In this document: positions 7,261 to 24,990 of the stretch, in pieces
How positions within the stretch are numbered: the stretch's first letter is position 1
Layout: each line of letters starts with the position of its first letter
DNA from: Halorubrum sp. PV6
GTDB lineage: Archaea > Halobacteriota > Halobacteria > Halobacteriales > Haloferacaceae
DNA length: 64,000 bases
Direction: 5' to 3'
Assembly (NCBI RefSeq): GCF_003990725.2
Contig: NZ_CP030064.1
Span: 620,001-684,000 of the forward strand
Position numbers and translations under genes: made by a program
Notes under the pieces: model-generated
The model's database searches: none
Told to the model about the DNA's origin: nothing
The model's input: the letters and a program-made list of their open reading frames with translations, nothing else

Positions 7261-7713
7261 CTACTCGTCGACCGGTCGGAACCGGAACCCGTCCCACGCC
7301 TGGCTCTCCGGTTCCCTGATCCCGGCGCCCGGCTCGCGGAGCTCCGTCGCGTAGACCGGCTCGACGCGGTCGCCGATGTCGACGTCGAACGCCTCCTCGG
7401 ACCCGTCTTCGCGCTCGGCGATCTGCCCGAGCGCGCGCACCGCCGGGCCGTCGTACGCCGGCCCCATGTCGAACTCGACGATAGCGAGGGTGTTCGGCTC
7501 GCGCACGCCGGGCGGGGTCGCGGTCGAGGTCGTCCAGGTGAGAACGTGACCCTCGTACTCCCGGAGGTCGACCGTCCCGACGCGCTCGGCGCCGGTCGGG
7601 CTCACGGTGTGCGGCGGGTACGTGACGGCGCCGTCGGCGTACTCGGCGGCCGCGAAGGTCGGCTCCTCGTCGCGGTTCGTCCCCGTCGCGTCGTCGGTCT
7701 CGTGGTCGCTCAT
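7261..7713 (-). CDS. Beta-ketothiolase small subunit (DUF35 OB-fold)
   Basis: A 150-residue OB-fold protein of the DUF35 type. It starts inside the last codons of the thiolase gene (overlap 7710-7713), so the two are almost certainly a complex. The fold is suggested by TVDLREYEGHVLTWTTS and DIGDRVEPVYATELRE. Unlike many DUF35 proteins it contains no cysteine at all, so the usual N-terminal zinc ribbon is absent. In Haloferax mediterranei the PhaA and BktB thiolases each pair a catalytic alpha subunit with such an OB-fold beta subunit; this pair matches that pattern. Confidence 0.85.
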   Translation of the reverse strand: MSDHETDDATGTNRDEEPTFAAAEYADGAVTYPPHTVSPTGAERVGTVDLREYEGHVLTWTTSTATPPGVREPNTLAIVEFDMGPAYDGPAVRALGQIAEREDGSEEAFDVDIGDRVEPVYATELREPGAGIREPESQAWDGFRFRPVDE

Positions 7714-23421: not shown

Positions 23422-23451
23422 TTTTATCAGGTCCACCGGAATGGACGGGGT

Positions 23452-24990
23452 ATGGGAGACGATTCCGGCGATCCGTCGATGTCGACACGGCTCCTCGGTC
23501 GGTACGGCGGACCGATCGTCGCCGGGCTGGGATTCGTCATCACGCGCTTTTTCGTTGCGGAGGCGGTCACCCTCTCCGGCGAACCGATCGCCGTCGCCGC
23601 CACCGCCGGGTCGCTGGTGGTCGGACTCTCCCTCACGGTCGCGGGCGTCGGGCTCGCAGTCGGCGCGTTCACCTCGGCGTTCGTCGCCGATGTCAGCCGC
23701 GGGTGTCTGCTCGGAACCGGGGCGACGGCGGCCGCCATCGCCATCACGATTGCGGCGACCAGCGTTGGCATGATCGATGCGGCGGTCGGCACGCAGTTGC
23801 TCGTCGCCAACGTCCTCCTCGCGGGCGCCATCGGCGGCATGGTCAACGGCTATCGCAAGGCGTTCCTCCGCCAGCGGCGGGCGGCGGTCATGCGCGGCGC
23901 GAACCGGGCTCGGTTTATTAATCGGCTGCTGCGTCACGAGGTGTTGAACGCCGCGACGATCATCGACGGACACGCCGACCTGCTTCGCGACGACGGCGGA
24001 GACCGGGAGCGGTCCGTCGGCGCCATCCGCCGCGGCGCCGCTCGGATCGAGTCGACGATCAACGGGGTCGGAACGATCGCCGAAGACCGCACGAGAAACG
24101 CGGTTTCGCTCGCGAAGATGATCCGTACTGCGGTCGACTCGGTCGGTGACGGCGGGAGGTATGACCGCGACGTGTCGATCGATGTCGGCAGCGCCACCGC
24201 CGACTCGGTGCGCGTCGACGCCGACGACCGGCTCTCAATCGTGTTCGAGCGGTTGATCGAGCACGCTGTGGATGTCCGTGGCGCCGAGATTGTCCGGATC
24301 GAGACGACGGTTGAGCGACACGCGGCCACCGTGACGATGATCGACGACGGTTCCCTGCCGTCCGACCGACAGCGCGGCGTTCTCGAGCGTGGGTCGTTCC
24401 CCGAGTTCGACGACCCGACGAACGGGTTCGAACTGCAGGCGGCCTCCCTCCTCGTCGGCGAGTACGAGGGAACGATCCGCGTCGAGCGCGGCGAGGAAAC
24501 GCGAGTCGTTGTTCGGCTCCCATTAAAAAGCGCTGACGCGGCAGTGGCCGCGGTCGGCGTTGAGTACCCGTCCTTGGTTCGTGCGATCACCGCAGGGTTC
24601 GCCGCTGGTATCGCCATGGGCGGCCTGTTCTTGACGGCGAGCGGCACGCTCCCGGTGATCGGTGCGCTCTACGGCGCCGAGAGCGCCGCTATCGGGTGGA
24701 TAACACACCAGTTCCACAGCGTCGTGTTCGCGCTGCTGTTCGTCGCCGGGGTGTCGCGATCCCCCCTCAGCGACCGCACGCACCGCCCGCTTGCAGCGAG
24801 CGTCGCCGGTCTCGCGTGGGGAGTGCTGCTCTGGTTAGTCGCCGCCGGACTGGTCATGCCGATCTGGCTCCGGGCTGTCGGAATCCTGGCGACGCTGCCG
24901 AACCTCCCCTGGATCGGTCTCCTGTCGCACGGGATCTGGGGCGTGACGCTCGGGGTGGGATACGTCCTCATCGGCGGTCGCTTCGAGTAA
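23452..24990 (+). CDS. Histidine-kinase-like membrane protein with degenerate ATPase
   Basis: A 512-residue protein in three parts. Residues 15-145 contain four or five membrane helices. Next comes a HisKA-like dimerisation helix with RLLRHEVLNAATIIDGHADLL, phosphoacceptor candidate His162. The ATPase part has lost key residues: the N-box reads FERLIEHAVD, the G1 box DDGSLPS in place of DDGPGIP, and the G2 box GFELQAA in place of GFGLA. About residues 375-512 add four more membrane helices ending YVLIGGRFE. It may be a pseudokinase or only a phosphatase/phosphotransfer partner. It follows the radical SAM and MBL genes. Confidence 0.8.
   Translation: MGDDSGDPSMSTRLLGRYGGPIVAGLGFVITRFFVAEAVTLSGEPIAVAATAGSLVVGLSLTVAGVGLAVGAFTSAFVADVSRGCLLGTGATAAAIAITIAATSVGMIDAAVGTQLLVANVLLAGAIGGMVNGYRKAFLRQRRAAVMRGANRARFINRLLRHEVLNAATIIDGHADLLRDDGGDRERSVGAIRRGAARIESTINGVGTIAEDRTRNAVSLAKMIRTAVDSVGDGGRYDRDVSIDVGSATADSVRVDADDRLSIVFERLIEHAVDVRGAEIVRIETTVERHAATVTMIDDGSLPSDRQRGVLERGSFPEFDDPTNGFELQAASLLVGEYEGTIRVERGEETRVVVRLPLKSADAAVAAVGVEYPSLVRAITAGFAAGIAMGGLFLTASGTLPVIGALYGAESAAIGWITHQFHSVVFALLFVAGVSRSPLSDRTHRPLAASVAGLAWGVLLWLVAAGLVMPIWLRAVGILATLPNLPWIGLLSHGIWGVTLGVGYVLIGGRFE

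Follow-up and report, generated by a model that had tools for sequence, protein, structure and literature searches.

In DivL of Caulobacter, Tyr takes the place of the phosphoacceptor His and the N, G1, F and G2 boxes are kept (PMC4211667), and in the pseudokinase ChrS a frameshift in the CA domain seems to abolish phosphatase activity (PMC9491836). Archaeal proteins with HisKA and no HATPase have been described primarily from Archaeoglobi and Methanomicrobia, and the authors of that paper suggest phosphatase activity for them (PMC5847659); the HisKA_4TM domain (PF16926) has been reported as distinct to haloarchaea (PMC6944256). The protein described here, P0001 of Halorubrum sp. PV6, is a membrane sensor that derives from a HisKA-type histidine kinase (HK). 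It has lost the portions required for use of ATP and retains those with which such proteins contact signalling partners and turn them off; judged from its sequence and that of its relatives, it probably serves as an off-switch or regulator, not as a kinase.

Domain layout and ATP-binding site of P0001

Within the window, by which we mean the whole 64-kb stretch of DNA that was analysed, an open reading frame at 23452..24990 on the + strand encodes P0001 (512 aa), and reading of the sequence confirmed both the frame and the motifs. The genome that carries it measures 3.04 Mb. In order along the protein come a TM domain, the DHp helix, which is intact, a degenerate HATPase domain and four further TM helices, with the following features:

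23422..23427, + strand: TTTTAT, resembling a TATA box, its A 26 nt upstream of the start-codon A
23452..24990, + strand: P0001, HK-like protein predicted to be kinase-dead, 512 aa (ORF and motif reading)
23497..23856, + strand: N-terminal membrane domain, residues 16-135 (hydropathy, family alignment, low-confidence model)
23899..24096, + strand: DHp domain, residues 150-215 (Pfam, alignment, profile comparison)
23935..23937, + strand: His162, phosphoacceptor, intact (alignment)
23947..23949, + strand: Asn166 (H+4), HisKA phosphatase position (69/69 rows; PMC3510030)
24214..24531, + strand: degenerate HATPase (CA) domain, residues 255-360 (Pfam, alignment)
24262..24264, + strand: His271 replacing the N-box Asn (His in 8/8 window-clade sequences)
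24343..24363, + strand: G1 box DDGSLPS (first Asp and first Gly retained, second Gly of GxG gone)
24424..24435, + strand: G2 box GFEL instead of GFGL (alignment)
24547..24975, + strand: C-terminal four-helix membrane domain, residues 366-508, DUF6789/DUF1440-like (invariant H419, H422, S423, W472 and H493)

The phosphoacceptor helix LLRHEVLN, which contains the H-E/D-x-x-N/T box and the phosphoacceptor His, is intact, as a preliminary description had stated, and canonical N, G1 and G2 ATP boxes are not present. That description also held that the N-box (FERLIEHAVD) had lost its asparagines; this stands for the second, which is now His271, but the first position varies across the family anyway, so that the loss of the second Asn is the telling change. 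G1 does read DDGSLPS, with the refinement that its first Asp and first Gly are retained, and G2 reads GFELQAA with its glycine gone, again as described. Against Pfam, P0001 scores 22.9 bits with HATPase_c, below the cut-off of 26.4, 13.8 bits with HisKA (cut-off 26.9) and 15.7 bits with DUF1440 (cut-off 34.7). Of 54 listed HATPase_c matches in this genome, among which the window gene does not appear, 53 lie above the cut-off, so the wear of the P0001 ATPase goes beyond chance. The DHp and CA core aligns with HisKA kinases (PDB 9jfj, 3dge and 4cti) over profile positions ~157-365.

The four membrane helices placed behind the ATPase in the preliminary description were recovered, since hydropathy agrees with the secondary structure of a low-confidence model in which these helices span residues 374-395, 412-436, 446-475 and 485-510. 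This AlphaFold2 model was built from two sequences (P0001 and the Halobellus captivus copy, L038), has a mean pLDDT of 41.4 and a pTM of 0.26, and was used for its secondary structure alone. The N-terminal membrane domain, in which F28, T31, R32 and five glycines are invariant across 69 family rows, is perhaps HisKA_4TM-like; PF16926 matched one of 45 members with E 0.0021, and P0001 is not that member. A 2-isopropylmalate synthase match at about residues 178-226 (NCBIfam, PDB) was set aside as short and either far below cut-off or at E 0.35.

Motif classes and evolution of the family

Matches at E<=1e-25 were found at 80 places in 77 of the 392 genomes of the order that were searched. The set of loci (n=78) consists of 77 places together with L038, with G020 and G241 omitted and the second piece of G349 falling inside L065, and exclusion of nine partial or stand-alone loci (L029, L030 and L079-L085) leaves 69 full-length rows. 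When the phylum (392 genomes) was searched by profile, the matches that span the C-terminal domain had E<=1.9e-74 and lay inside the order, and the best E outside the order was ~1e-35, among matches without listed ranges. A member outside the order appears unlikely, and on these profiles the family is haloarchaeal. The L038 copy loses its frame near residue 493, after position 7440, and the copy in G098 (L079) was matched as two separate pieces.

The canonical residues (His, N-box Asn, GxG and G2) are present together in 31 of the 69 rows. Six rows form the window clade, 12 rows (clade B) have lost all ATP motifs, and 18 have Asp in place of the phosphoacceptor His, 13 of them with the ATP site kept and five with N-box loss as well; L027 and L065 each stand alone. 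Common to the six rows of the window clade are E-H-A in place of E-N-A, a missing second glycine in G1, and GFEL or GFAL instead of GFGL, and two further Halorubrum copies at the same locus (L222 and L223) carry the same ATP-site changes, which brings the count to 8/8. The preliminary description had proposed a pseudokinase, had called for an alignment of orthologues and had named a local lesion as the alternative. The changes prove to be common to all eight Halorubrum orthologues read at the locus, and canonical orthologues exist (31/69) but sit in other clades, so the state is clade-wide and derived and not a local lesion; together with the purifying selection described below, this leaves the pseudokinase reading well supported.

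Several members stand apart in their setting. At least three clade B genes are on plasmid records (L122 and L126 from Halobaculum, L123 from Halorubrum salinarum), and others are on contigs of ~3 Mb, for example in G340 and G331. In nine members (L044, L045, L049-L051, L054, L056, L057 and L064) Asp replaces the phosphoacceptor His and the ATP site is intact; each lies directly after a gene of ~690 aa or more that resembles uvrB, and these nine may be ATP-binding regulators. One Halorubrum genome (G720) has a canonical member at another place (L221); close by, a second match covers part of the C-terminal domain (residues 403-477). For the genes of this family, a database annotation as 'histidine kinase' can mislead.

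In the tree, the window-clade sequences group into a single branch next to canonical sisters, at a long distance from clade B. An AU test, made on a quick tree of 52 of the 69 rows with a simpler model, rejected a common origin of the window clade with clade B (p-AU 0.030) but left standing a common origin of the window clade with L027 (p-AU 0.475) and of the His-to-Asp rows among themselves (p-AU 0.654). Since the joint origin of window clade and clade B is the only one rejected, what we claim is two separate ATP-site losses, in these two groups, and not the four N-box changes that a parsimony count gives. Mean identity between the window clade and six canonical rows is 0.41 in the CA domain as against 0.53 among the canonical rows themselves; the corresponding values are 0.54 and 0.53 for DHp, 0.45 and 0.48 for the N-terminal and 0.52 and 0.52 for the C-terminal membrane domain. 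CA alone of the four domains has drifted from the canonical sisters.

All domains of the window-clade gene are under purifying selection, dN/dS being <0.5 in every domain in 5/5 window-clade pairs. DHp has the lowest value in each of the five (0.12-0.30), and CA values of 0.25-0.44 fall within the 0.10-0.45 of eight canonical pairs. In the N-box helix 15 of 20 positions are invariant in the six window-clade rows, and His271 is shared. An HK fold kept by selection with its catalytic residues lost is what is expected of a pseudokinase. The TATA box of a leaderless transcript is expected at about 26-27 nt before the start, and a TTTA/TTAT element is found 26-27 nt upstream of the ATG in 8/8 window-clade loci, as compared with 0.85% of random places. 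This element is a probable promoter of the gene's own, of the leaderless type, and its being shared argues for expression of P0001; in Haloferax volcanii, 72% of protein-coding transcripts are reported to be leaderless (PMC4983044). The shared changes, the selection and the common promoter-like element make the gene look alive and the change clade-wide.

Within Halorubrum the family is patchy, with a match at E<=1e-80 in 17 of 52 genomes and none in the other 35. Each of the 17 has a single match at this threshold: eight of the window kind, one canonical and eight of clade B, where G716 was placed by score alone. The locus order is radical SAM-MBL-[HK]-HAD. Among 11 gene-less loci examined (L210-L220), nothing was detectable in 10, and in L218 (G317) the last 54 residues (459-512, 74% identical) survive between the MBL and HAD genes, a remnant that looks like a deletion scar, so that the pattern of absence points to deletion. 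L223 (G714) has a frame break at the H-box together with an assembly gap in a draft genome that is 82% complete, where draft error and real lesion cannot be told apart, and its H-box was excluded from counts on these grounds. Because 35 of the 52 genomes are without a match and the L223 frame is broken, we call the gene dispensable in Halorubrum. Patchiness, empty loci, the 54-residue remnant and one broken copy in eight are also what a decaying pseudogene would give, but the frame is open in the other 7/8 window-clade copies, dN/dS stays below 0.5 throughout and the promoter-like element is shared, which makes decay scarcely credible.

P0001 is very probably unable to autophosphorylate with ATP. 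It is distinctly unlikely that nucleotide binding persists and that the protein serves as an atypical kinase or a nucleotide-gated switch. G1 retains Asp298, Asp299 and Gly300, of which the first Asp is adenine-binding in other kinases, and the conserved N-box helix with its shared His271 suggests new use and not decay. However, the N-box Asn, a metal ligand in other kinases, has been lost along with the second GxG glycine and the G2 glycine, and HATPase_c remains below its cut-off. In Myxococcus CrdS, the N-box mutant N482K is reported to be kinase-deficient (PMC3510030).

DHp signature and candidate functions

Only 19 positions are invariant in the 69 rows, and 17 of these are in the two membrane domains (8 + 9); L160 and N166 are the sole invariant positions of the kinase core. 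The H+4 residue is therefore Asn in 69/69 rows, in agreement with the Thr or Asn that marks HisKA phosphatases. All 51 rows that have the His have an acidic H+1, whereas 15 of the 18 His-to-Asp rows carry R, K or Q there, and H+4 is still Asn. In CrdS, the acidic H+1 is reported to be required for kinase and not for phosphatase activity, and the H+4 Asn for phosphatase and not for kinase activity; the half-life of CrdA~P is 53.5 min alone, 0.7 min with wild-type CrdS, 47.6 min with N375A and 2.6 min with the His mutant, which retains most phosphatase activity (PMC3510030). For NtrB and EnvZ the same source describes the DHp domain as sufficient for phosphatase activity, with CA greatly raising it (PMC3510030).

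This is the pattern to expect where dephosphorylation, or docking of a regulator, is the duty common to all members, and it speaks more for phosphatase activity or regulator binding than for the sensing, phosphotransfer or scaffold role suggested in the preliminary description. Active HisKA kinases also keep H+4, so its invariance in canonical rows carries little weight and the phosphatase argument rests on the 18 His-to-Asp rows, which are possibly of single origin. Our preferred reading, with a probability of roughly 0.4, is that P0001 is a kinase-dead membrane sensor working, under the control of a signal, as the phosphatase of a response regulator. This regulator would be phosphorylated by other kinases in the cell and dephosphorylated by P0001 on signal: the dimeric DHp bundle would bind the phosphorylated regulator, Asn166 would assist the attack of water on the phosphate, the remaining CA fold would stabilise or gate that bundle, and the two membrane domains would set the state of the protein. 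The sequences show the changes, how far they have spread, the conservation and the selection; the loss of kinase activity, the phosphatase activity and the partner regulator are inferred. The evidence against is real and comprises the apparent loss of activity with CA in ChrS, the absence of both activities in DivL, the loss of both in PleC H610A (PMC3510030), the lack of an adjacent regulator with the one probe used, and the dispensability of the gene.

With one receiver probe, no response regulator match was obtained in the window, and 2 of 78 neighbourhoods matched, the probe itself having been taken from one of the two; the conventional two-component arrangement, with an adjacent cognate response regulator, was not found with this probe. 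Besides the family gene, no cluster of neighbours recurs in more than 9 of the 78 loci, whose flanks are of unequal length. DUF3179-like genes are near 9 of the 78 (canonical L038, L127, L128, L142 and L065; clade B L078, L161, L162 and L164), the Pfam annotation having been run on the L038 copies only, and several of these loci also have pyridine-nucleotide oxidoreductases or regulators presumably of the HxlR type. The window clade is without them, and a function drawn from these neighbours was rejected because they are absent beside it. Among viral contigs, 27 stretches fit a pattern and none was confirmed as a relative.

The main rival of the phosphatase reading is that P0001 works without catalysis of its own, either as a scaffold or heterodimer partner that tunes another HK or as a reader of a phosphorylated regulator in the manner of RetS or DivL. 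We regard this as somewhat unlikely, with precedent in DivL, which is reported to sense DivK~P while having neither kinase nor phosphatase activity (PMC4211667), and in the pseudokinase ChrS with HrrS (PMC9491836). DHp, the most constrained domain in 5/5 pairs, could dimerise with other kinases, and the 53 HATPase_c domains above cut-off among those listed for the genome, not all of them kinases, would offer partners. However, a pure scaffold need not keep the H+4 Asn, and no close paralogue to pair with was found: the 17 Halorubrum genomes have a single match each (E<=1e-80), and the next match in P0001's own genome is 29% identical (E=3.4e-10, residues 147-364). His162 and Glu163 are retained in the 19 rows that lack N-box, G1 and G2 together (six window clade, 12 clade B and L027), as would be expected if His162 took phosphate from another kinase or regulator and passed it on. 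Such a relay seems quite improbable, since no receiver domain was found nearby with the one probe, His and Glu may equally serve phosphatase activity or docking, and the five N-box-loss rows of another group have Asp for the His.

The preliminary description had tied the extra membrane helices to the loss of the ATP site. This link is not supported: the second membrane domain is family-wide, canonical members included, and so does not explain that loss. In this domain G404, Y407, H419, F421, H422, S423, F426, W472 and H493 are invariant in 69/69 rows, and so His-rich a domain may bind a ligand. It joins the CA domain by a short link, through which it could act directly on CA. A search of P0001's own genome gave no second copy of the domain at E<=1. 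Elsewhere, L081-L085 are matched in this domain only and are mostly short stand-alone genes, with a second gene of the same kind adjacent to L081. The stand-alone L085 scores 25.7 bits with DUF6789 (1.4e-5, cut-off 27.1) and 24.6 bits with DUF1440 (2.8e-5, cut-off 34.7), and in L046 a clear relative (hhalign 98%, 4e-15), a small membrane protein, is encoded close to the family gene. E. coli YagU was considered as a direct relative and rejected as too weak (hhalign 7%, 0.0049, above 10/10 decoys at 0.05-0.82%). YagU is reportedly induced by external acid (PMC2270276), which is no more than a lead.

That this DUF6789/DUF1440-like domain is itself the working part, as sensor, channel or redox protein, with the HK core as a regulated dimeriser, would fit the existence of stand-alone forms and the 17 of 19 invariant positions in membrane domains, three His, a Ser and a Trp among them. 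It is nonetheless very improbable, because DHp has a dN/dS below that of either membrane domain in 5/5 window-clade pairs. Returning to the phosphatase reading, we tentatively extend it to the whole family, in a form that we consider doubtful: kinases with membrane domains at both ends would have repeatedly become kinase-free, signal-gated phosphatases by loss of the ATP site in some lineages and of the His in others, with the phosphatase Asn and the three membrane His unchanged throughout, and the His-rich C-terminal domain, attached directly to CA, would be a second input on it.

Comparison with known systems

The HisKA kinases ZraS, HK853 and EnvZ have the same H-E-x-x-N box that is intact here, but in the window clade the ATP site is lost and a second membrane domain follows CA. 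HisKA_4TM kinases have a similar N-terminal TM input, whereas P0001 has an extra C-terminal membrane domain. DUF6789, DUF1440 (YagU) and DUF2938 are likewise small helical membrane domains; all matches to them here are below curated cut-offs, and here the domain is fused to a kinase core.

DivL is likewise a kinase-dead HK core kept in evolution, and the family profile matches its structure (4q20). The loss is the opposite one, however, as P0001 keeps the His and loses the boxes; the 13 His-to-Asp rows with the ATP site intact are the nearer analogue of DivL. The archaeal proteins with HisKA and no HATPase similarly have a conserved His and no working ATPase, but a worn HATPase fold persists here, and in haloarchaea. 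Kinase-free, perhaps phosphatase-only HK relatives have already been suggested for archaea in that work (PMC5847659).

Among the literature matches shown there was no paper on this fused family, hits of the broad searches being largely unlisted. Pseudo-histidine-kinases (DivL, ChrS) and archaeal HisKA proteins without HATPase are known already. To these the sequences add a family of haloarchaeal proteins that carry a membrane domain at each end, different lineages of which have lost opposite halves of the kinase. As canonical, ATP-dead and His-dead versions occur in related genera, the function of an HK without kinase activity becomes directly testable.
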